Source: Mytilus galloprovincialis (Eukaryota; Mollusca; Bivalvia; Mytilida; Mytilidae). From it: a stretch of 64,000 nucleotides of DNA. Each line of letters starts with the position of its first letter. Positions within the stretch are counted from its first letter, which is position 1. The stretch spans positions 31,868,958-31,932,957 of the forward strand of contig NC_134842.1 in the NCBI RefSeq assembly GCF_965363235.1. Reading direction: 5' to 3'. Positions 70-50,690 of this stretch are shown here, one piece after another. The notes beneath the pieces are model-generated. The model saw nothing but the letters and a program-made list of their open reading frames with translations. It was not told the DNA's origin and ran no database searches. Both the position numbers and the translations under genes were made by a program.

Positions 70-3000
70 CAGATTCATAGCTGGCTCCTTCTGTTGCCTC
101 ACAGGCTCCTTTGGATGTAATTCTTTCTTCTTTAAGTTTTAATCGTCTTAATTTTTGTTCTGGTAATTTTGATTTCTTTTGCCGTTTTTCTCTTTCATGG
201 TCTTTCTTGGAATTGTAAGGGACTGTGAAACTTCCAGGAGAAAGTCCATGTCTTTTGAATGTCTGTAATTACAAAAAAGATGTTTATTTATCAAATAGTT
301 TGGTATTATATAATTACATCTTTAAAGACTTTAGACTTTCTTTGGGGAGGCTCAATCTTCAATAATCAAATTTAATTCAATAATTTGTTTACTCCATTAG
401 TCAAAATACAAAAAACAGGATAAACATTGAAGCAGAAGAATGCAGATACCATAATTTATAATTTTCAACAAATATTTTGTTTTGCTAAATAGTAATGCAT
501 TTTAATGATAAATTAAGTTTGTCATTTATATTTACACCCGTATTTAAAAAAAAAAATGTGACTTAAATTTACAGATAAATTCTATTGTCCAATTGCAGAA
601 ATATGTTACCTAAATAATGAATTGTAATTGGATTTCCAATGGAAATAGTCACTACATTCAACAAGAGTGCACACACTGAAATGTCTCGCCTTCTTTACTA
701 ATCCTTGATACTATCTTGATAGACCTAAATATAAAGCTTTGTTACAACTGTAACATAAACTCAACATTAACCAAGAAAATGAAACATTGATCAATGAACC
801 ATGAAAATGAGGTCAAGGTCAGATGAACCATGCCAGGCAGACATGTACAGCTAACAATTCTTCAATACAACAAATATAGTTGACTTATTGCTTATAAATA
901 AAGAAAAACAGACCAAAACACAAACACTTAAAACTTAGGAATGGACCGTGAAAATGAGGTCAAGGTCAAATAAAACCTGCGTAAATGACATATTGATCAT
1001 AAACTATTTCCATACACCAAATATAGTTGACCTAATGCATAAAATATTAGAAAAATAGACCAAAACTAAAAAACTTAATTTTGACCACTGAACCATGATG
1101 ACACCTGTCAGCTAGACATGTACACCTTACAATCATTCCATACACCAATTAAAGTAGACCTATTGCATATAGTATAAGAAAAACAGACCAAAACACAAAA
1201 ACTTAACTATAACCACTGAACCATGAAAATGAGGTCAAGGTCAGATGACACCTACCAGTTGGACATGTACACCTTACAGTCCTTCCATACACCGAATATA
1301 CTAGACCTATTGCTTATAGTATCTGAGATATGGACTTGACCACGAAAACTTAACCTTGTTCACTGATCCATAAAATGAGGTCGAGGTCAAGTGAAAACGG
1401 TCTGACAGGCATGAGGACCTTGCAAGGTACGCACATACCAAATATAGTTATCCAATTACTTATAATAAGAGAGAATTTAACATTACAAAAAATCTGAACT
1501 TTTTTTTCAAGTAGTCACTGAATCATGAAAATGAGCTCAAGGACATTGGACATGTGACTGACGGAAAGTTTGTAACATGAGGCATCTATATACAAAGTAT
1601 GAAGCATCCAGGTCTTCTACCTTCTAAAATATAAAGCTTTTAAGAAGTGAGCTAACACCGCCGCCGCCGCCGGATCACTATCCCTATGTCGAGCTTTCTG
1701 CAACAAAAGTTGCAGGCTCGACAAAAACAATTCTTGAAATCAACCTTTGAAATGACACCATGCACAGAAATGACATGCAAGACAGAAAAACAGAAAAAAT
1801 AACATAAAAATTTCATTTTGATTAACCTCGGACAAGTAGTTTCTTCCTTCATTAATACAGGCAGCAGAGGCTTTTACTCGAAAGTCCAAGCTTTCACTCT
1901 CTCCATAGTGCAGATGTTTTGGAGCACGCAAGGAAGCTGCTCTATTTGCATGCTCACATGCCTGGCTAGACCCTAAATCTGCATAAGAAGCTGCCTTCAA
2001 AATGACTGGCTCAAAAAGGTTTTGCAGTTTTTCTCGTAAAACAGGATCTGATAGTGGAGCCTTGTATGGTAAGCTTCTATGAAGGTATTTCACACTAGGT
2101 TTCCTTTTGTAGCCACAGAACCTGGGTTGACACAGGCTATGATCCCCAAATTGGTGTGGAATTAATGCTTCCAGGTTATTTTTCATGTCATCTGGTTGAC
2201 CTTGATTTTTGGCAAAAACATATTTGATGGATTTTGTCAAATGTCTTATGACTAAGCTGCTAATTTTCAAATTCTTGTTATTTTTTTGTAGATCATATAA
2301 TCTGGCAACAATGTTTTTGATGGTATGATTTTTGTCAAATTTTTTAGTAACTGTTAAATTAAGTTCAGATTTTAGCCTTGCTATCAATGTGTTATCCCCA
2401 TCTCCCTCGATAGTCTTTACAGGGGTTCCTTGTTCCAGCAACTCTTTGACAGCCTGCATTCCTGCTTGGCTTTCCATCAATCTAGCTGACCCTCTGTGAT
2501 TCCACACACATCTGTGTGGTCTTGGTTTTCTACCTGGCCTATTTCTCTTCCACCATTTGCATGTTCCACACGTACGATGCTTAACAATTGTTTTGATAAC
2601 TTTATTACCATACTCACGCTTGCTCATCAAAAATGTATGACCTACAGACATATAAATTTTCGCTATTTTATATCAAAAAATAGAAATTAGATGTGAAGGA
2701 ATTGATTAAAATTGGCCTAAGGCCAGGATTTTTTAATTTATTGGTTTACGGATCCGCCGACCCGATTTTGCTGATTTCCAGAATAAAAATAAAATTCACT
2801 TTTCACGCTTTTTTATTCCCGCCGACCTTAACAAATGCATTATCCCTGAAAAATAATTAAAATATTTTTTTTCCTGAAATGAAATGCATTAATCACTAAC
2901 AAAATTGACAACACTTTCTGGTGTGAAAAAAAAACCCTTCCAGTTTACGTTTCTAAATATAGACAAATCAATTATAACTGACCTTGAAATGTCGTTTGCG

Positions 3001-6000: not shown

Positions 6001-7812
6001 TCCATAACTTTTAAATTCTTATGTGAAATAGGTGGCAGGTTCAAAGTGGACAGTACATTGTTTACCCTCTGAGGACCACCTAAGGCATCAATCATTGCTG
6101 AAAAAAAAGTAAAACATTATATATACATCATTGTACATTATAACAACACTTGTACATGCATGTATGTTTAATTTAAGTGCAGACATTTTTGACAAAAGCT
6201 TTTCTCAGCAAAATCAATTTGAGTTAATATATGCTGATCATATTCCTCTGTAAATGTTTTATAAATGAAATGTATTTTCACAGATTAAAATAAAAATATT
6301 GTCCGTTCATCTTGCTTTTTTTTATATATAAAAAAAGCTGTGGAGTCTAACATCTTTTATTTCCCAAAATATCATGCAAAATTTCCTACATGTAAGCAAA
6401 TATTACCATTTGTAAGAAAATAATAAAAAATGGTGTCTCAAGAATAATGCTTTTAAAAAATGATAAATATCTCTCATATATTTCTTACTAAGTACATGTA
6501 CATGTAACTACATTGAAAAAGTTTCTATTGTAGGAGTAAAACAACTTTTCATATAAAAAATTAAAGTAAAAGAGATCTTGAAAATGATTTTGGCTTATAA
6601 ACATGATAAATACTATAATTCAGTCCTATTTTTAGCAATCTGCTCATGAATAAAACATTCTCTGATTTCTCATCCAATGTCTTGATGAAAAGAGGGAGGC
6701 TTTTTTCAGGTGTTTTTAAGCTCAAAATTGGTATCATGTAGAATTTTTTTATTTTGGGATTATAGACCAGATTGAATTTTGTTTATCTCAAGACCTCAGG
6801 ATTTCTCTATACTTGTGTTTAAAAGCCCAGGATTTTTGGATCAGGACCCACTTATTCCTCTTAAAATACATGTATGGGGTACCCGTGTGTGAGCGGGTGA
6901 GTGGACTAAAACTTACATGTATTTATTTATTCTGTCTTGATATTATGACAATGAAATTGAAGGAAAACCAACCATTTTTCTGTTTCATGAAAATCAACCC
7001 GGAAATTGATAGATACAAATCTGGGTCTGTTCGCCCTGTTACACATTCGTCCTAGATCCATTCGCCTATTTTTTTTTTGGCATTGTTGTTAAATTGCAGA
7101 ATATTCATTGGTCATGTTCAAAGTTTGTTGAAAAATCGCAGAATATTTGCATTATATAACTAATAACTAGTAACGAACTCAGGGTGGAAAAAACTAGGAC
7201 GTACCAACCTACGGCAAGTATGTAATCAGGGTGAACATACCAGATACATGTACAATGTTAAATGATGAATCGGAATGAAGGATAGATACAAATAATAATT
7301 AATAATAAATAAATACTGAAAGGCATACTAAATTGTTTCTTACCTGCCCCAAGCTTAGTATTCACACAGAAACTTGGCATGCCCTTGGAACTTGGGTTTT
7401 CTTTGTGCGTTGATCCATATGGAACCCTGTTCAATTCCTGGCACGATGTGCACTGGATATAAAGATAGCCACCAAGTCCACATTTCATCTCTCCTTTTAT
7501 AGTCTCGTGGCTTAATATAAGAGGGCCGTTATAACACCTCGAACAAAATTTAAGATGGTCCAGTAGTGTTCCCCATTCCACCAATCTTCTCCCCGAATGC
7601 CAGGAGGTACTGGTATTTATCTTTGTACTCCCCAGAAGTTTGTCAATGCCGGGGCAGCAAACGGCACAGCCTGTTGCCCCGGCTATACATAAGTGTCCCA
7701 CACCATAATTGTGGTCAATTTCAATGTTTTCTGCAACTTCAGGTTCACTTGTTTCTTGTAGTGTCTTTGAAAACCTCCCCCGTTTGTCGCGACAGACGAC
7801 CGAGTCGGCCAT
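70..7812 (-). CDS. Mutator-like transposase-domain protein, 5' six exons (3' end off window)
   Basis: Six exons on the minus strand: 7812-7344, 6097-5917, 5173-5048, 4058-3970, 2641-1827 and 262-70. Every junction is GT-AG and the phases are continuous, giving 624 residues before the window ends. The start (MADSVVCRDKRGRF) has a good AAAATGG context. The N-terminal part has two CxxC pairs (FCSRC, CTSC), then a GRRLVEWG...NTKLGAGAMIDALGG...LNLPPISHK stretch typical of the metazoan Mutator-like transposase domain. TDHGWQKRG (D276) and EGDGDNT (D369/D371) look like the catalytic acids, followed by CGTCKWWKRNRPG, HRCVWNHRGSARLMES and FGDHSLCQPRFC. Exon 3 encodes an 11-residue direct repeat (NTDSHTDMTDT). 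Relatives often add a YqaJ exonuclease domain, which would be outside this window. The intact frame and five introns suggest a host-like gene rather than a fresh transposon. A role in DNA transactions is inferred only from the family. Confidence 0.85.
660..1727 (-). repeat. 1.06-kb hairpin-ended repeat, copy 1 (in intron 5 of the Mutator-like gene)
   Basis: Begins AACAAGAGTGCACACACTG and ends in a hairpin whose arms are GTCGAGC...GCTCGAC around TGCAAC/GTTGCA, followed by an A run. The body is a series of imperfect direct repeats of about 130 bp, each with ATGAGGTCAAGGTCA and a 'caaatatagt(t)gacctattgc' block. A GCC-rich triplet run lies just inside the hairpin. The same element recurs at 11782-12864 in the opposite orientation and, truncated, at 52394. 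No ORF of note, so it is probably non-autonomous. Confidence 0.85.
2721..3723. mobile_element. PIF/Harbinger-like non-autonomous DNA element, about 1.0 kb
   Basis: Terminal inverted repeats of about 33 bp: the left end reads GGCCAGGATTTTTTAATTT and continues with TTGGTTTACGGAT. The right end, reverse-complemented, reads GGCCACGGTTTTTTAATTTG and continues the same way. Direct TAA triplets flank both ends (2718-2720 and 3724-3726). A 3-bp TWA-type duplication is characteristic of PIF/Harbinger. The interior has no transposase frame. It sits in intron 4 of the Mutator-like gene. Confidence 0.75.
4620..4925 (+). repeat. Interspersed repeat family A, copy 1
   Basis: About 300 bp. Recognisable blocks are 'atgtatgtgcctgttc', 'cagtggttgtcgtt', 'gaaggctgtacggtgacct' and the 3' block 'gagttgtctcattggcaa'. 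Other copies: 26675-26970, 58440-58855 (diverged) and 63445-63525 (3' part), with minus-strand pieces near 63690. The apparent ORF at 4381-4731 runs into this repeat and is not a gene. Confidence 0.75.
5373..5590 (+). repeat. Interspersed repeat family B (CCCGAAATCCCG type), copy 1
   Basis: About 220 bp, with G-rich start, C-rich end and internal 'atcccaaaatcccgggctta' and 'cccgataaaggtccta' blocks. Homologous copies lie at 25870-26095 and 54765-54990. The opposing G-rich and C-rich ends suggest a small inverted-repeat (MITE-like) element. It sits in intron 2 of the Mutator-like gene. Confidence 0.65.
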
Positions 7813-11781: not shown

Positions 11782-12864
11782 TTTTTTTTGTCGAGCCTGC
11801 AACTTTTGTTGCAGAAGGCTCGACATAGGGATAGTGATCGGGCGGCGGCGTTAGCTAACTTTTTAAAAGCTTAATATTTTAGAAGGTGAAAGACCTGGAT
11901 GCTTCATACTTTGTATATAGATGCCTCATGTTACGAAGTTTCCATCAGTCACATGTCAAATGTCCTTGACCTCATTTTCATGGTTCAGTGACCACTTGAA
12001 AAAAAAGATCAGAGTTTTTGTAATATTGAATTCTCTCTTATTATAAGTAATAGAATAATTATATTTGGTATGTGCGTACCTTGCAAGGTCCTCATGCCCG
12101 TCAGACGGTTTTCACTTGACCTGACCTCATTTCATGGATCAGTGAACAAGGTTAAGTTTTGGTGGTCAAGTCCATATCTCAGATACTATAAGCAATAGGG
12201 CTAGTATATTTGGTGTATGGAAGGACTGTAAGGTGTACATGTCCAACTGGCAGGTGTCATCTGACCTTGACCTCATTTTCATGGTTCAGTGGTTATAGTT
12301 AAGTTTTTGTGTTTTGGTCTATTTTTCTCATACTATATGCAATAGATCTACTATATTTGTTGTATGGAATGATTGTAAGGTGTACATGTCTAGCGAGCAG
12401 ATGTCATCTGACCTTCACCTCATTTTCATGGTTGAGTGGTCAAAGTTAAGTTTTTAAGTTTTGGTCTTTTTATCTAATACTATATGCCATAGGTCAACTA
12501 TATTTGGTGTATGGAAATATTTTATGATCTATATGTCAGTCGCGCAGGTTTTATTTGACCTCGACCTCATTTTCACGGTTCATTGCTCAGTGTTAAGTTC
12601 TTGTGTTTTGGTCTATTTTTTTAAAACTATAAGTAATAGGTCAACTTTATTTGTTGTATGGAAGCATTGTTAGCTGTACATGTCTGCCTGGCATGGTTCA
12701 TCTGACCTTGACCTCATTTTTATGGTTCATTGCTCTTTGTTTAGTTATCTTGGTTAATGTTAAGTTTATGTGACAGTTTTTAACAAAGCTTTATACTTAG
12801 GACTATCAACATAATATCAATGATAAGTAAAGAAGGCGAGACATTTCAGTGTGTGCACTCTTGT
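11782..12864 (+). repeat. 1.06-kb hairpin-ended repeat, copy 2
   Basis: Opposite orientation to copy 1. A T run and the hairpin (GTCGAGCC TGCAAC TTTT GTTGCA GAA GGCTCGAC) come first, then the roughly 130-bp imperfect direct repeats containing TGACCTTGACCTCATTTTCA. It ends at GTGTGTGCACTCTTGT. The near full-length match to copy 1 defines the element ends. Confidence 0.85.
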
Positions 12865-14470: not shown

Positions 14471-14645
14471 GTTGAAATTTGGGAATTTATTTGCAATATT
14501 AAATTTAGTTTAAATCTATATTAAATTAGAAATTTTCCAGCAAAGTAAATGCATAATATTTTTTGTAATTTGAAATTTAATATGCATAACATATACATTT
14601 AATTTTATATTAAATGCATCATTTCATGCAGTGAAATGCTTTTCA

Positions 14646-14775
14646 AATTTGTACTTGTTTGAATTTTTAACTATTTTGATCTAAGCGTCACTGATGAGTC
14701 TTATGTAGACGAAACGCGCGTCTGACGTAATAAATTATAAGTCTGGTACCTTTGATAACTGTATATTCATAGTCG
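14646..14775 (+). mobile_element. Hammerhead-bearing repeat, fragment A
   Basis: Contains the 3' third of the hammerhead repeat family ('gtacttgtttgaatttttaa', hammerhead motif, 'gtctggtacctttgat'). The upstream body is absent. Confidence 0.75.
14685..14728 (+). ncRNA. Type I hammerhead ribozyme motif (most canonical copy)
   Basis: All core elements are present in order: helix I 5' strand GCGTCA, core CTGATGA, stem II GTCT-TATGT-AGAC, core GAAA, short stem III ACGC/GCGT, cleavage triplet GTC (14720-14722) and helix I 3' strand TGACGT. Helix I pairs as five Watson-Crick pairs and one G-U. The core and short stem III match type I hammerheads known from schistosome satellites and animal retrozymes. 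Self-cleavage is predicted after 14722 and has not been tested. Confidence 0.85.
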
Positions 14776-18349: not shown

Positions 18350-18540
18350 GACTTTGTATTTGAAAGGCTCTGATTCCTTTCACGGATTTGGCTATACTTT
18401 TTTTGGAACTTTTAGATTATAGCTCTTCATCTTTTATATAAGCTTTGGATTTCAAATATTTTGGTCACGAACATCTCTGAAGAGACATGTATTGTCGAAA
18501 TGCACATCTGGTGCAGGGAAGTTGGTTCCGTTAATGTTAT
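18350..18540 (+). repeat. Second hammerhead-like repeat family, fragment
   Basis: About 190 bp, 'ggatttggctatactttttt' through 'ggttccgttaatgttatt', enclosing the hammerhead-like motif at 18471-18514. It is unrelated in sequence to the 14.6-kb family outside the ribozyme core. Confidence 0.6.
18471..18514 (+). ncRNA. Degenerate hammerhead-like motif, second family
   Basis: Core CTGAAGA (position 7 of the hammerhead core tolerates any base), stem II GACA-TGTAT-TGTC, core GAAA, stem III ATGC/ACAT with one mismatch, cleavage triplet ATC, then TGGTGC. Helix I (ACATCT/TGGTGC) has mismatches at both ends, so this copy is probably weak or inactive. The base-paired stem II with a different sequence from the first family supports a ribozyme origin. 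Confidence 0.55.
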
Positions 18541-18639: not shown

Positions 18640-18836
18640 GTATAAATAAACTCATCATAGATACCAGGACTAAATTTTGTATATACGCCAGACGCGCGTT
18701 TCGTCTACAAAAGACTCAACAGTGACTCTCAAATCCAAAACAGTTAAAAAAAAAGCCAAATTAAGTACGAAGTTGAAGAACATTGAGATCCAAATTTCCT
18801 AAAAGTGTTGCCAAATACAGCTAAGGTAATCATTAA
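18640..18836 (-). mobile_element. Hammerhead-bearing repeat, fragment B
   Basis: Minus-strand copy running from 'accttagctgtatttggc'-type sequence to the terminal 'tggtatctatgatgagtt' block. It contains a mutated ribozyme at 18685-18728. Confidence 0.75.
18685..18728 (-). ncRNA. Hammerhead motif, inactivated copy
   Basis: Core reads CTGTTGA instead of CTGATGA, and helix I pairing is reduced. Stem II and stem III are intact. Predicted non-functional. Confidence 0.7.
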
Positions 18837-19231: not shown

Positions 19232-19290
19232 AAAATATGGGTACATAAGTCATCATTGTTATACGATGATGACTTATGTACCCATATTTT
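19232..19290. repeat. Perfect 25-bp palindrome arms, 9-bp loop
   Basis: Arms 19232-19256 (AAAATATGGGTACATAAGTC...) and 19266-19290 are exact reverse complements. A direct repeat 'atacgatgatgac' straddles the structure. Confidence 0.85.
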
Positions 19291-19604
19291 GACTATTTTA
19301 TGTATTGTGTCTGTTTAGTTAACGCATCAATGTAAATATAACGGAATTTGATGAGACTGTCATCAAAGTGAGAGGGTTAGCGCTATAAAACCATGTTTAA
19401 TCCACCATTTTCTACATTTGAAAATGCCTGTACCAAGTCAGGAATATGACAGTTCTTGTCCTTTCGTTTCTGATGCGTTTTGTTATTTGATTTTGCCATG
19501 TGATTATAGACTTTCCGAATTGATTTTCCTCTAAGTTCAGTATTTTTGTGATTTTACTTTTTAAGTGATGATAACCTATCATAATCATATCAAATAAACT
19601 CTTC

Positions 19605-19745
19605 ATAGATACCAGGATTTAAATTTCATATTTACGCCAGACGCGTATTTCGTCTACAAAAGACTCATCAGTGACGCTCGATTCAAAAAATGTTAAAAAA
19701 GCCAATTTAGAGTTGAAAGTATCAGAGGAACATTGAAACTCATAA
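19605..19745 (-). mobile_element. Hammerhead-bearing repeat, fragment C
   Basis: Minus-strand copy with the terminal 'tcctggtatctatgaagag' block, the ribozyme motif at 19634-19677 and the upstream 'aacattttttgaatcgagcg' segment. Confidence 0.75.
19634..19677 (-). ncRNA. Hammerhead motif, stem III altered
   Basis: GCGTCA/TGGCGT helix I, CTGATGA, GTCT/AGAC stem II and GAAA are intact. Stem III reads ATAC/GCGT, losing one pair. Activity uncertain. Confidence 0.75.
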
Positions 19746-35317: not shown

Positions 35318-35440
35318 CGTGTTTTATTTGGCCTTTTTAACGGTTTTTTATTCGAGTGTCTCTGATGAGTCTTATGTAGACGAAACGCGCGTCTGGCGTT
35401 TATACAAAATTTAGTCCTGGTATCTGTGATGAGTTTATTT
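35318..35440 (+). mobile_element. Hammerhead-bearing repeat, fragment D
   Basis: 3' third of the family ('tttatttggcctttttaacg', ribozyme motif, 'ttagtcctggtatctgtgat'). Confidence 0.75.
35356..35399 (+). ncRNA. Hammerhead motif, near-canonical
   Basis: CTGATGA, GTCT-TATGT-AGAC, GAAA and ACGC/GCGT are intact, and the cleavage triplet is GTC. Helix I (GTGTCT/TGGCGT) has a T-T mismatch next to the core and several G-U pairs, so cleavage may be weak. Confidence 0.8.
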
Positions 35441-35449
35441 ATAGTGTTT

Positions 35450-37630: not shown

Positions 37631-37859
37631 GCATGCTAAGCCCAGTAGTCAGCACTTTTTGTGCTGACATGAATTGTCATTGATATGGTTATATTTATAA
37701 ATTTACTGTTTACAAATTTTTGAATTTTTTGAAATACTAAGGCTTTTCTACCTCAGGCATAGATTACCTTAGCTGTATGGCAAACCTTTTAGGAATTTTG
37801 GTTCTAAATGCTCTTCAACTCCGTACTTTATTTGGCCTTTTTAACTTTTTTGGATTCAA

Positions 37860-37903
37860 GCGTCACTGATGACTCTTTTGCAGACGAAACGCGCGTCTGG
37901 CGT
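37860..37903 (+). ncRNA. Hammerhead motif in dimer unit 1
   Basis: Helix I GCGTCA/TGGCGT, CTGATGA, GAAA, stem III ACGC/GCGT and GTC are intact. Stem II reads CTCT/AGAC, so the first pair next to the core is lost (C against C). Probably impaired. Confidence 0.8.
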
Positions 37904-38224
37904 ATATACTAAATTTAGTCCTGGTATCTATGATGAGGTTATTTACAACCACTGGGTCGATGCCACAGCTGGTGGAGATTTATGTCCCCGAGGGTATCAC
38001 AAGCCCAGTAGTCAGCACTTTTTGTGCTGACATGAATTGTCATTGATATGGTTATATTTATAAATTTACTGTTAATAAAATTTTGAATTTTTTGAAATAC
38101 TAAGGCTTTTCTACCTCAAACATAAATTACCTTAGCTGTATTTGGCAAAACGTTTAGGAATTTTGGTTCTAAATGCTCTTCAACTCCGTACTTTATTTGG
38201 CCTTTTTAACTTTTTTGGATTCGA

Positions 38225-38268
38225 GCGTCACTGATGAGTTATTTGTAGACGAAACGTACGTCTGGCGT
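38225..38268 (+). ncRNA. Hammerhead motif in dimer unit 2, compensated stem III
   Basis: Helix I and both core strands are intact. Stem III is ACGT/ACGT, a compensated change from ACGC/GCGT that keeps all four pairs. Stem II starts GTTA and is weakened. Confidence 0.8.
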
Positions 38269-38694
38269 ATATACTAAATTTAGTCCTGGTATCTATGATG
38301 AGTTTATTTAAATCATGTACTGTTTACCATGGTTAATATCACGTTTCTTCAGATTGATATGATGTTTTATTCCAAGTCCAATTTATATGAAAACCCTTCT
38401 ACAATGTACTATTTGTCTAAGGTCATATTACAACCTTCAAAATGACAGGCGGGTTTTATGCACGCAGTATTTACAGGTGGCCACAGGCTTACCAGCACAG
38501 GCTTGTAAAGTTACTATCAGCCCTGCAAGAATTTCAATCATCAGACATTAAATATATACATAACTATTAAAAAAGTTATACCTAGCCTGTGACTGAATAA
38601 TTTGATCATTATAACAGTGAATTTTCCGTTTTTTTCATTTAAATACAATGTTAAAGATATCTTGGTATATAAAAACAAAAATATTACAACTATG

Positions 38695-41682: not shown

Positions 41683-41797
41683 CTAAAGGGAGTCATTCTT
41701 TTGTTATTCTTTTTTTTCAATCTTTCATCAAAAGAAACATTTTTAATATACCATTAAGGATCAATTATTTTTTAAGCTCATTTTCCATTCCTGCTAA

Positions 41798-42100
41798 AAT
41801 CATCATAGATACCAGGACTGAATTTTTTGTATTAACGCCAGACGTGCGTTTCGTCTAGTGAATAAAAAAAGGTTAAAAAGGCCAAATTAGATACGAAGAT
41901 GATGAGGATTGAGGACCAAAGATTCCTAACAGTTTTGCAAAATACAGCTAAGGTCATCTATACTGAGGTAAAAATGCCTTGTTATTTCTAAAATTCAAAG
42001 TTTTGTAAACAGTTAATTTATAATTATGACCATGTCAATGATAATTCGTGTCAATACGAAATTGCTGACTATTAGGCTGGTGATACCCTCGGGGAATAAA
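41798..42100 (-). mobile_element. Hammerhead-bearing repeat, near full-length copy G with ribozyme deleted in part
   Basis: Minus-strand copy from 'gggtatcaccagcc'-type start (near 42095) to 'tcctggtatctatgatg' (41798). GAAACGCACGTCTGGCGT remains, but the CTGATGA and helix I 5' half are replaced by 'tttttattcact'. The catalytic core is lost. Confidence 0.75.
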
Positions 42101-42724
42101 ATTCCACCAGCAGTGCTCAAAAACTTCCTTAAAAAGGACGAATATTTGTTTTTTCTTTAAAAGTATATTGGGTTGGATGATACCACTTTAATAACAAAAT
42201 ATAAAAAAGTAATGAAATCAAACATAACTTAACATCCAGTTGATAAACAGTAAACCTGATAAGTATATATTATAAATCTGTGCTAAGTGGATATGATGGG
42301 ATGTAGTGCAGAACATTTGAACATCAACTGAAAAATTAGTATATATATTGCAAGTTACCTATCCCTTCAAAAAGTTACTTCAAATGCAATGATCATTGCA
42401 GAAATCTGTCATATCATTCATTACACTTAAACTTTTGATATAGTCAGATGGGCTGCCTTAAAAACAAAACTCAAGAGATATGTTTTATACATGTATGCTC
42501 TAAATCATCTTAGGTTGATATGGTTGAAGGATTTTATTCATATTAAAACAAATATTGTCATTTTGAAGCCTTTTATAGATAGCTCTTCCATGTGAGCCGA
42601 AGTCCGTACTTTTTAGTCTTACAGGATATATTCCAATTAAATATTGATATAAATGGGGAATGGGTCCAGGAGACACAGAAAAGTCCCCACTTGTCTATCA
42701 TATAAAGTAATGAACGGACATAAC

Positions 42725-43800
42725 TGAACTAGAGGCTCTCAAGAGCCTGTATCGCTCACCTGACTCTACTTGGGTTTTTGAAATCATATAAAAACAGATA
42801 AAATTTGGCTACAAAGTAACAACACTTGGCCAGCACCTCATAAAGAAAGGACTATTAATGCTAGTTTGATTTCATTCAATTCCGTGGTTCTCTAGAAGAA
42901 GACTTTTGTATGCATTCCCTATCAGGTTCTATGTTAAACTAAGCCCCCCCCCCCCTGGCAGCCATCTTGGACGATGGATCGGAGACAAAGTAACAACACT
43001 TGGTCAGCACCTCATAAGGAACATTTATGCCATGTTTGGTTTATTCCATTTAGTGGTTCTCTAAAAGAAGTCATTTGTATGAATTTCCCATAGGGTCCTA
43101 TGTTAAACTAAGTCCCCCACTGGCGGCCATCTTGGATGATGGATAAGCTACAAAGTAACAATACTTGGTCAGCACCTCATAAGGAACATTTATGTCATGT
43201 TTAGTTTCATTCCATTCAGTGGTTCTCTAGAAGAAGTCATTTGTATGCATTTCCAATAGGGTCCTATGTTAAACTAAGTCCCCCGCTGGCGGCCACCTTG
43301 GATGATGGATCGGCTACAAAGTAACAACACTTGGTCAGCGCCTCATAAGGAACATGCATGCCATGTTTGATTTCATTCCATTCAGTGGTTCTCTAAGAGA
43401 AGTCATTTGTATGCATTTCCCATAGGGTCCTATGTTAAACTAAGTCTCCCGCTGGCGGCCATCTTGGATGATGGATCGGCAACAAAGTAACAACATTTGG
43501 TCAGCACCTCATAAGGAAAATTTATGCCATGTTTGGTTTCATTCCATTCAGTGGTTCTTTAGAAGAAGTCATTTGTATGCATTTCCCATAGGGTCCTATG
43601 TTAAACTAAGTCCCCCGCTGGCGGCCATCTTGGATGATGGATCGGCTACAAAGTAACAACACTTGGGCAGCACCTCATAAGGAACATTCATGCCATGTTT
43701 AGTTTCATTCCATGCAGTGGTTCTCTAAAAGAAGTTCAAAATGTAAAAAGTTAACGACGACGACGGACGACAGACGACGGACGCCAAGTGATGAGAAAAG
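42725..43800. repeat. 166-bp tandem array, about six units
   Basis: 'gccatcttggatgatggatc' recurs at 42961, 43126, 43292, 43458 and 43624 (spacing 165-166 bp). Each unit has 'acaaagtaacaacacttggt' and 'gggtcctatgttaaactaag'. The array is headed by a palindromic 'aggctctcaagagcct' and closed by a GAC-rich run ('cgacgacgacggacgaca') and 'gccaagtgatgagaaaagct'. Open frames inside are by-products of the repeat. Confidence 0.9.
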
Positions 43801-46292: not shown

Positions 46293-46421
46293 CGTACTAC
46301 AAAATACACAGGAATTCAGTTTATTTTGAGAGGACAGAACGGAATAAAGTTCTATAAAAAAGGAACTTATAGTTTAATTTATCTATATGCATCCTTGCTG
46401 AAACACAATCCAGTGCATATA

Positions 46422-47957
46422 ATGAGAAACAATACTGATGTCTTTCTTCACAACAGAACTCCTGTCTTTGTTATATCAGTTATTGAAGGATTCGGAATAA
46501 TTATCTTAAATACAGTCCTACTTCTTGTTTCATGCAAGATTAAAAAGGAAATCAGAAATCAATTACGTATATTTTATACATTTCTTGGAGTATCGGACCT
46601 ACTGAATGGTTCCCTGTTACTGGTGAATTCATTCACATACTTTTACAAAGATTTTTCTCTTTTTCAAAACTACAAGTTTTGTTTCTCAATTGCCTTATTG
46701 GCCCAAACCCAGATGTTTATAACTGGATATTTACTTTTATTACTGACATTTGTGAAATTCTTTTCTATCATCACTCCTCTGAAATGTCTAAAATATGTCA
46801 CACGTGAAATGGCCATTCGTCTATCTTTTGGAGTGTGGATTTTTACTTCGGGACTTGTAATAATTCCATCACTGCTATGGGTACAAAATCAAGTTTATAC
46901 ATTAGGACAAGAATGTGATCTGTACAGTGCATATGGAGACAAAGTTGGACAATTTATGACTTTAAAAAAATCAGCCATGGGAATTTTTATTTTTTCTCTG
47001 ATAATATTGAATTCAAAGATTGTTATGACCATAATAAAGCGAAACAAAAGGGTTGGGGTTTTGAAAGGTAAACTAGACACTTCCACTTATAAACCTGATA
47101 CCAAAGGAGTTCTAGGAAGTAAAATGGACACTACTTCTTCATTGGCTGGATCATCAGTTGGTGCACCTGGTATTAAAGGAGTTCTTGGAAAGAAAAAGAA
47201 AACAAGAACTTCCACTAATGAACCTGGTCACAACACATATATGGAGGGTAAACTGGGCACTTTGGGTAATGTTGACTCTGGTACCAGTAGAATGTCAAAA
47301 AATGTACTGGATACCTCAATTGTAGTTGAAAAACCAAGTAACAATGGAATTCTGGACAGCAAACCACAAATCAACAGAGTTATGGATGGGAAACTAGATA
47401 CTATGTTAAACACGTCTGTTCTAGATCCGGGTATCAGTGGACGTCTAACAACAAAAATGGAATCATCCACTACTCTTGATGAACCTGGTACTAGTCATAA
47501 AATATTTAACACTAACATCCCAGAAAATTTGTCGTTGCCAAAAAGAAAAATATCAAAGTCACAAGTAAATATAAAAAGTGAGTTGGAAAGTCAAACTATA
47601 GAAAAGAGAATAACAAAGGATCACAATCAAAAACTTAAAACAACGACCAAGCAGCGAATGATAACATCAACGACCTACAATTTTCTGAAGTCGAAAAATG
47701 TTAAGGCCTATTTAACAGTTCTCATGCACGTAGGATTTCATCTTCTAAGTGGTATGCCATCATTTGTATTTCTATCTAACGGACAATTACTGCCTTATTA
47801 TACCAGTAGTAGAAGTATCAGATTTGTTTGTGCTATGTGTAGATATTTTGTATCATTGATAGATCCCATTCTGATATTACTCCGAACACCAGTATTCAGG
47901 ACAACATTGAAGACATTGTGTAGTAAATGTATACAAAGACAACCTAAATATTACTGA
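46422..47957 (+). CDS. Divergent rhodopsin-like seven-transmembrane receptor, intronless
   Basis: 511 residues from the first in-frame ATG (MRNNTDVF); the frame is open upstream but lacks another ATG. N-terminal sequons are NNT and NRT. TM1 carries ILN (N30), TM2 has LGVSDLL (D59), C87 and C165 could form the TM3-ECL2 disulfide, TM3 ends VKFFSIITPLKC and TM7 ends SLIDPILILL. Atypical points: the DRY site reads VKF, TM6 (GFHLLSGMPSFVFL) lacks CWxP, and NPxxY is DPILI. Intracellular loop 3 spans about 208-424 and consists of degenerate repeats of GKLDTS, GVLGSK, GILDSK and KNVLDT type. This resembles the lineage-expanded orphan receptors of molluscs. Ligand unknown. A poly(A) signal lies 60 bp past the stop. 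Confidence 0.85.
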   Translation: MRNNTDVFLHNRTPVFVISVIEGFGIIILNTVLLLVSCKIKKEIRNQLRIFYTFLGVSDLLNGSLLLVNSFTYFYKDFSLFQNYKFCFSIALLAQTQMFITGYLLLLLTFVKFFSIITPLKCLKYVTREMAIRLSFGVWIFTSGLVIIPSLLWVQNQVYTLGQECDLYSAYGDKVGQFMTLKKSAMGIFIFSLIILNSKIVMTIIKRNKRVGVLKGKLDTSTYKPDTKGVLGSKMDTTSSLAGSSVGAPGIKGVLGKKKKTRTSTNEPGHNTYMEGKLGTLGNVDSGTSRMSKNVLDTSIVVEKPSNNGILDSKPQINRVMDGKLDTMLNTSVLDPGISGRLTTKMESSTTLDEPGTSHKIFNTNIPENLSLPKRKISKSQVNIKSELESQTIEKRITKDHNQKLKTTTKQRMITSTTYNFLKSKNVKAYLTVLMHVGFHLLSGMPSFVFLSNGQLLPYYTSSRSIRFVCAMCRYFVSLIDPILILLRTPVFRTTLKTLCSKCIQRQPKYY

Positions 47958-48177: not shown

Positions 48178-48480
48178 GGGTATCACCAGCCCAGTAGTCA
48201 GCACTTATGTGTTGACAAGAGTTATCATTAATATGTTCATAATAATAAATTTACTGTTTACAAACCTTTGAATTTTTTAAGTACTAAGGTTTTTCAACCT
48301 TGGTTGTATTTGGCAAAACTTTTAGGAATTTTGGGTCTTCAATGCTCTTCAACTTCGTACTTTATTTGGCCTTTTAAACATTACTGATTCGAGCGTCGCT
48401 GATGAGTCTTTTGTAGACGAAACACGCGTCGGTCGTAATTATAAAATTTTATTCCTGGTATCAATGATGAGTTTATTTTT
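48178..48480 (+). mobile_element. Hammerhead-bearing repeat, near full-length copy H
   Basis: Complete unit from 'gggtatcaccagcccagtag' through 'cttcaacttcgtactttatt' to 'tcctggtatcaatgatgag'. Lies just past the receptor gene. Confidence 0.8.
48393..48436 (+). ncRNA. Hammerhead motif, mutated stems
   Basis: CTGATGA, stem II and GAAA are intact. Stem III (ACAC/GCGT) and helix I (GCGTCG/GGTCGT) carry mismatches. Predicted inactive. Confidence 0.7.
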
Positions 48481-49435: not shown

Positions 49436-50690
49436 TTCTTCTTCTTCTTCTTTCAGTACAGAGTCGGACTCTTCTTGAGTGTATAAATGACTCTTGCTCG
49501 TGAAATCATGAGGCCTTCCCTCCTTAATTAATAAAAACTATTTACAGGAAAATTATTTACAAATAAAACTATGTACATCTGGGGTCAAAGGATATCTAGA
49601 TGTGTGAAGCTCCTGTCAAGGCCTCTGGTAGGATGGTAAGGCTGGCCTTGAACTCTTCTAGTGTAGCTGCTGTTGTGGCTTTTTCCGGTAGAGTGTTCCA
49701 TTCCCTGGTTGATCTTGGGAAGAAGGAGTACCTGTATTGGTCTTTTAGAGTGTGCTGTTGGTGTATGCGGTGGCCTCCTCTGGTCCTTGAATCTCCGGGT
49801 TTGTAATAATTAGAGGGGTCAATATCCACCAATCTATTGCGGATCTTGTATGCCATGGTGAGTCGGTCTTTGCAGCGTCGATCTTTAAGAGGTTCCCATT
49901 TTAGTCTCTCCATTAAGGAGCTGACACAACCTGGGGATACGTCTTGGTATTCATTGTACACGAACCTAGCTGCCCTTCTCTGTACTTGTTCTAGGTCTTA
50001 ATCAAGGTTATGTTGGTAAGGGTCCCATACAGTGTAGGTGTATTCCAGGGTTGTTCTGACCATGGTGATGTAGGCGTTAGCTTTGACTTCTGGTTTACAC
50101 CGTCCTAGGTTCCTTCGCAGAAAGCCTAGTGTCCTTGATGCTTTGCCTACCGTCTGGTTGATATGTGTCTTCCACTGTAGGTCATGGTTTATGGTGACTC
50201 CCAGGTATTTCCCATGCTCGACTGCATCTAGTGTGTGACCAAGTAGTTGGTAGTTCCTTATCAGTGGGTTTCTTTTGTTGGTAATCCGTATCACGATGCA
50301 CTTCTCAGGATGGAAATTCATCTGCCATCGTGATTCCCAATCTTAGAGTTTGTTAAGGTCGTCTTGGAGTGTCTCGCTATCCTTTACATTCTTTATTTTT
50401 CTATAAACTAGGCAATCGTCTGCAAATAACCTTGCCTCAGAAGATGTTGATTGTGGCAGGTCATTAATGTAAGCCAGAAATAATAGGGGTCCGATGACTG
50501 TTCCCTGAGCCACCCCTCAGATGACGTCTAGGGGGCCAGACTTATGCCCTTCAAGCAATACGGATTGTATTCTCTTGCTTAGGAAGTCTTGTATCCATTT
50601 GAGTGTTACTCCACGTATTCTTTAATAGTCCATTTTTTGGAGGAGTCTCTTGTGGGGCACTTTGATATTGTTTCATTATACTTTAGTTAA
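49436..50690 (-). pseudogene. 5'-truncated Jockey/CR1-type non-LTR retrotransposon (reverse transcriptase remnant)
   Basis: Minus-strand translation retains ordered reverse-transcriptase landmarks: KVPHKRLLQKMDY, GVAQGTVIGPLLFLAYINDLP, FADDCLVY, WQMNFHPEKC, GKYLGVTINHDLQWKTHIN, LGFLRRNLGRCK, VRTTLEYTYTVWDPY and QVQRRAARFVYNEYQ. At least four in-frame stops (after MDY, DVI, LNKL and HNLD) kill it. It begins inside the polymerase domain, so it is a 5'-truncated insertion. The 3' end is an AAG microsatellite (49436-49456, minus strand), as in elements that terminate in short repeats rather than poly(A). Confidence 0.9.

Follow-up and report, generated by a model that had tools for sequence, protein, structure and literature searches.

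A probable decayed dimeric retrozyme in the mussel Mytilus galloprovincialis and the ends of its shortened relatives

At positions 37638-38310 of the 64-kb stretch of Mytilus galloprovincialis DNA analysed here (the window), we identified a stretch that very likely goes back to the insertion, as a dimer, of a mussel non-LTR retrozyme and has since decayed; elements of this kind are non-autonomous retroelements, and the unit here measures about 365 nt. An earlier note on this DNA had proposed a candidate animal retrozyme, and the proposal is supported by the unit length, the tandem layout, the type I hammerhead, the low G+C content, the lack of a long ORF and the presence of dispersed relatives, all of which match the description in PMC7229834. 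The retrozyme reading is not new, the locus being an ordinary decayed member of a kind already described. What we add is the pattern in which the copies end, and a hypothesis drawn from it.

The 365-nt unit is arranged head to tail in approximately 1.84 copies (Tandem Repeats Finder: period 365, 1.8 copies, 94% matches), and the two units are about 94-95% identical (94.2% over 310 columns by blastn). The features of the dimer are the following:

37638-37945, + strand: unit 1 of the retrozyme dimer, 5'-truncated, without the first 55 nt present in unit 2
37946-38310, + strand: unit 2 of the dimer, a complete 365-nt unit that stops at the family's common 3' end
37648-37668, + strand: 8-bp hairpin of unit 1, from the sequence
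38011-38031, + strand: 8-bp hairpin of unit 2, from the sequence
37860-37903, + strand: type I hammerhead of unit 1 (RF00163, 22.4 bits), predicted cleavage after 37897
38225-38268, + strand: type I hammerhead of unit 2 (RF00163, 26.7 bits), predicted cleavage after 38262

The earlier description of a head-to-tail dimer with a hammerhead in each unit, 365 nt apart, was borne out by Tandem Repeats Finder, blastn and cmscan. The span given for it, 37638-38312, is right at its start but not at its end, as the matching stretch stops at 38310, and position 37638, which had been taken for the unit start, is the 5' cut-off of this copy and not a unit boundary: the head-to-tail junction lies directly after 37945, where the common 3' end is joined straight to the next unit. 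Animal non-LTR retrozymes are recognised as tandem repeats of 150-450 bp with one hammerhead per unit, low G+C content and no coding region, and we find here two units of 365 nt with one hammerhead each, a G+C content of 35% and, in six frames, no stop-free stretch longer than 61 codons. In the 297 usable columns of the element (31 ambiguous ones were set aside), 14 derived states are common to the two units, and a further 5 and 8 are private to one or the other, which fits two copies of one template that later diverged; the shared states could also mark a subfamily. Exact 22-mers of the repeat gave no match in either the viral or the genome contig collections, as expected for mussel DNA, and a search of literature text for stretches of the repeat returned nothing relevant. 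A box B-like stretch seen by eye early in the unit raised the possibility of a promoter, but this reading was dropped, since the unit holds several T runs.

Both hammerheads of the dimer score below the Rfam gathering score of 34 and were found by cmscan at a relaxed threshold, with E-values of 0.013 (unit 1) and 0.00048 (unit 2) in a 1.1-kb search and of 0.74 and 0.028, respectively, in the whole window. Their predicted cleavage sites follow GTC and are spaced by exactly 365 nt, so that the circle 37898-38262, with the junction from 38262 back to 37898 named in the earlier note, agrees to the nucleotide with the predicted sites. The note had also called stem II damaged in unit 1 and weakened in unit 2, and indeed the closing pair of stem II is a C-C mismatch in unit 1, while unit 2 forms all its pairs, with one G-U in stem II (the third pair) and two in stem I, which is the same in both units. 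The suggestion that this copy may no longer cleave fits the mismatch in unit 1: with a C-C pair in stem II the dimer would at best cut at unit 2, and no unit-length RNA would be released. To judge by its letters, the dimer is thus probably dead as a source of circles. Helix III of unit 2 reads ACGTACGT; a change from ACGCGCGT to ACGTACGT was considered as compensatory, but would be given equally by one CpG decaying on both strands, and we claim nothing from it.

Minimum-energy folding recovered no hammerhead in any of the four stretches folded alone (unit 1, unit 2, 14685 and 48393). The predicted fold of the 365-nt circle likewise contains none and is barely more stable than those of shuffled sequences (z -1.7; 15 of 200 as low). 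The 8-bp hairpin, described earlier as conserved, is found in both units and kept in the copies that reach that far: across four aligned sequences, three of them distinct, 22 of 24 cells pair (91.7%), as compared to 17-46% with the partners slid. This is conservation without support from covariation, no pair being altered on both sides among the three distinct sequences.

Six further loci of the family were detected in the window by blastn, dispersed on both strands, all single and shortened, with no second tandem copy of the unit among them:

14634-14764, + strand: divergent single fragment whose hammerhead scores highest in the window (33.8 bits), with every pair formed and one G-U pair among them
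18643-18831, - strand: single shortened copy, hammerhead at 18685 with a mutated core (CTGTTGA) and one stem I mismatch
19592-19705, - strand: single shortened copy, helix III of two pairs
35323-35441, + strand: single shortened copy, hammerhead at 35356 with a T-T first pair in stem I
41795-42115, - strand: single unit, almost complete, whose hammerhead has lost its 5' half
48178-48478, + strand: single shortened copy, hammerhead at 48393 mismatched at two pairs of stem I and at one of helix III

Counting the dimer twice, the seven loci hold eight copies of the 3' part of the unit. In the blastn control, only one of 20 shuffled windows gave any match, compared to seven loci in the real 64 kb. 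Within the element, the units of the dimer are 82-88% identical to the other copies and 73-74% identical to the fragment at 14634. A profile of all eight copies (nhmmer) returned the same six loci and a faint match at 18376-18513 (E 2.9e-7), against one chance-level match (E 0.71) in the reversed window; the profile was built with 5-20 flanking bases, and its match ends were left out of account. The faint relative at 18376-18513 (+) carries a different hammerhead-like stretch, CTGAAGA ... GTCGAAATGCACATCTGGTGCA, and a motif search gave a single match, with one mismatch; a second type I hammerhead family of mussels, in damaged form, may be represented here. Upstream of 18643-18831 (-), letters like the unit start can be made out by eye, and this copy may be internally deleted and not simply 5'-truncated.

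Nowhere in the 64-kb window does any Rfam family attain its gathering score. All six hammerhead matches with E up to 5 fall within loci of the family. The pattern CTGATGA-N4-30-GAAACG occurs five times in the window against 0.03 expected from shuffles, four of the five in the family. The hammerhead at 14685-14728 keeps every core base and pair, with one G-U pair in stem I, and so supplies for the family the helices I-III and the intact core of a type I hammerhead. A structural descriptor, written only after the family had been seen, accepts three of the seven hammerheads (14691, 38231 and, on the minus strand, 19671); in 60 shuffles of the window with dinucleotides preserved, it accepted no motif. 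Of the two units of the dimer, unit 2 passes and unit 1 is rejected because of its stem II. Five of the six parsed motifs have an 8-nt helix III that is self-complementary throughout, the exception being 48393; in the seventh hammerhead (19592, -), helix III is down to two pairs.

The copies share one end and not the other. By blastn, the 3' ends of all seven loci lie at unit positions 304-308, i.e. 44-48 nt past the cleavage site (for the fragment at 14634, position 305 when aligned to unit 2 and 297 when aligned to unit 1), while no two of the seven 5' ends coincide, and four of these fall within positions 125-195. The terminal sequence GATGAGTTTATTT, allowing one change at most, is present at six places in the window, all in copies of the family (five of the seven loci, the dimer twice); it was not found within one change at 14634 and 41795. 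Six loci are shorter than one unit and one is longer. We also searched the flanks of all seven loci for target-site duplications, which in animal non-LTR retrozymes are longer than 4 bp when present, and found none above permutation: a locus's two flanks matched each other no better than swapped flanks did, the observed sum being equalled or exceeded in 2478 of 5040 permutations. These are old copies, with uncertain 5' ends. When 3' ends are fixed and 5' ends scattered, the copies bear the hallmark of target-primed reverse transcription, as known from LINE-like copying. The combination is not described in the available main text of PMC7229834.

If two hammerheads released a linear unit, its 3' end would be at the cut, but the copies cross the cut uninterrupted, so the template must have been continuous there, being either a circle or a transcript uncut at that place. 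Taken from the sequences of the copies, this pattern suggests that reverse transcription started at a fixed site within the RNA, and not at a ribozyme-made end. As a tentative hypothesis, which we hold to be possible but rather more doubtful than not, mussel retrozyme circles might be reverse transcribed in a LINE-like manner from one internal start about 47 nt past the cleavage site, so that copies end in TTTATTTA and have varying 5' stops; the linear ends made by the ribozyme would then not be used for integration, and insertions of more than one unit would arise because the template is circular. In intact members, according to our main reading, tandem units would be transcribed and the hammerhead of each unit would cut after GTC; the unit-length RNA would be closed into a circle, most likely by tRNA ligase, as reported by others for M. 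galloprovincialis, and the circle would be copied into the genome by the reverse transcriptase of another element, a step also present in the published model. Copying would start at the one fixed site about 47 nt past cleavage, run round the circle and stop variably, as the ends of the seven loci suggest, leaving most insertions shorter than one unit and a few, like the dimer at 37638-38310, longer. The tail of the LINE-like relic at 49599-49961 (-) was compared as well; it ends in a GAA run, without GATGAGTTTATTT within one change, and gives no hint of the mobilising element.

The same ends would also be produced by a SINE-like family whose template is a linear transcript ending in a 3' terminus of its own (TTTATTTA), with the hammerhead as a passenger and the dimer formed by tandem duplication. 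Ordinary LINE-driven copying of linear RNA likewise gives fixed 3' and scattered 5' ends, and six of the seven loci are indeed shorter than one unit. However, in the dimer the next unit follows the common 3' end with nothing in between, none of the seven loci begins at the unit junction, and circles from such repeats are abundant in mussel tissue (PMC7229834), and we regard this explanation as unlikely, while giving it some weight. That the locus is simply a local satellite or tandem duplication with chance hammerhead-like letters seems to us extremely improbable: other tandem repeats do occur in the window (Tandem Repeats Finder) and no hammerhead exceeds the Rfam threshold, but a local satellite would not be expected to have shortened relatives scattered over both strands and ending at almost the same 3' position, nor well-paired hammerheads in separate copies.

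The copies might also be the ends (pseudo-LTRs) of a Penelope-like element. Such elements also carry tandem type I hammerheads in animals (PMC7761336) and coexist with retrozymes in mussels (PMC7229834, PMC7761336), and in some cases their hammerheads lie in the pseudo-LTRs of an element that encodes a reverse transcriptase of its own (PMC7761336). Their hammerheads are, however, minimal, usually without non-conserved helix III nucleotides (PMC7761336), whereas here helix III has 8 nt and is fully paired in five of six parsed motifs. Pfam detected no reverse transcriptase in the five ORFs of at least 120 aa, a search that broken or intron-split ones would escape, and the dimer has no stop-free stretch over 61 aa. 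We therefore consider a Penelope-like origin very unlikely, and a mussel non-LTR retrozyme remains our preferred reading.

Plant LTR retrozymes reportedly have, as here, a dimeric hammerhead layout and a circular RNA intermediate. According to PMC7229834, their hammerheads are of type III, they have LTRs and their unit measures about 700 bp, whereas the present family has type I hammerheads and a 365-nt unit. In M. galloprovincialis, approximately 5000 type I hammerheads in two similar families have been reported, usually in 350-390-bp repeats (Cervera & de la Pena 2020, PMC7229834); these non-LTR retrozymes share with our family the Mytilus host, the type I hammerhead, the repeat size, the tandem layout, the low G+C content and the lack of coding capacity, a likeness of features and layout; the published circular RNA clones of this mussel are MN642551-MN642576. 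The same study reports self-cleavage at about 0.1 per min, circular RNAs demonstrated by northern blot and abundant in mussel tissue, and ligation of the monomer by RtcB (about 30%), and in the published model circles are copied into tandem cDNA (PMC7229834, PMC7761336). Compared to these, the locus at 37638-38310 is a mutated copy of 1.84 units; the features tested fit the published mussel retrozymes, target-site duplications excepted. Retrozymes offer a route to circular RNA without splicing in animals, and a near-common 3' end with differing 5' ends would provide a simple genome-wide test of circles as the template.

The window holds several other repeats and mobile-element remains. ORFs at 1740-2651 (-) and 7258-7812 (-) match the C-terminal and N-terminal parts, respectively, of a Mutator-like transposase (PF20700); some 4.6 kb separates these two remnants of a DNA transposon. 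At 1097-1389 and 12117-12729 there are arrays with a period of 147 bp, and by eye their consensus units look mutually reverse complementary; a further array at 42807-43735 has 5.6 copies of a 166-bp unit (89% matches, Tandem Repeats Finder). The inverted repeat at 19235-19286, whose arms are about 24 bp long and enclose a very short loop, is perhaps a small foldback element; cmscan lists it as a microRNA match, but a weak one (E 0.035), far short of the gathering score. The ORF at 49599-49961 (-), followed by the GAA run, has no Pfam match and presumably resembles the C-terminal end of a non-LTR element. It is 96% identical to a Mytilus edulis protein and 95% identical to a protein filed under Magallana gigas, a distant bivalve, the latter match perhaps reflecting transfer or contamination. 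Finally, the region 46419-47957 encodes a rhodopsin-type receptor (PF00001). Six proteins were found from 7999 candidates scored; among them, a Mytilus galloprovincialis protein has 96% identity to the receptor (75% of the query covered), and proteins of M. edulis and M. coruscus have 83% (53% covered) and 42% (41% covered), respectively.
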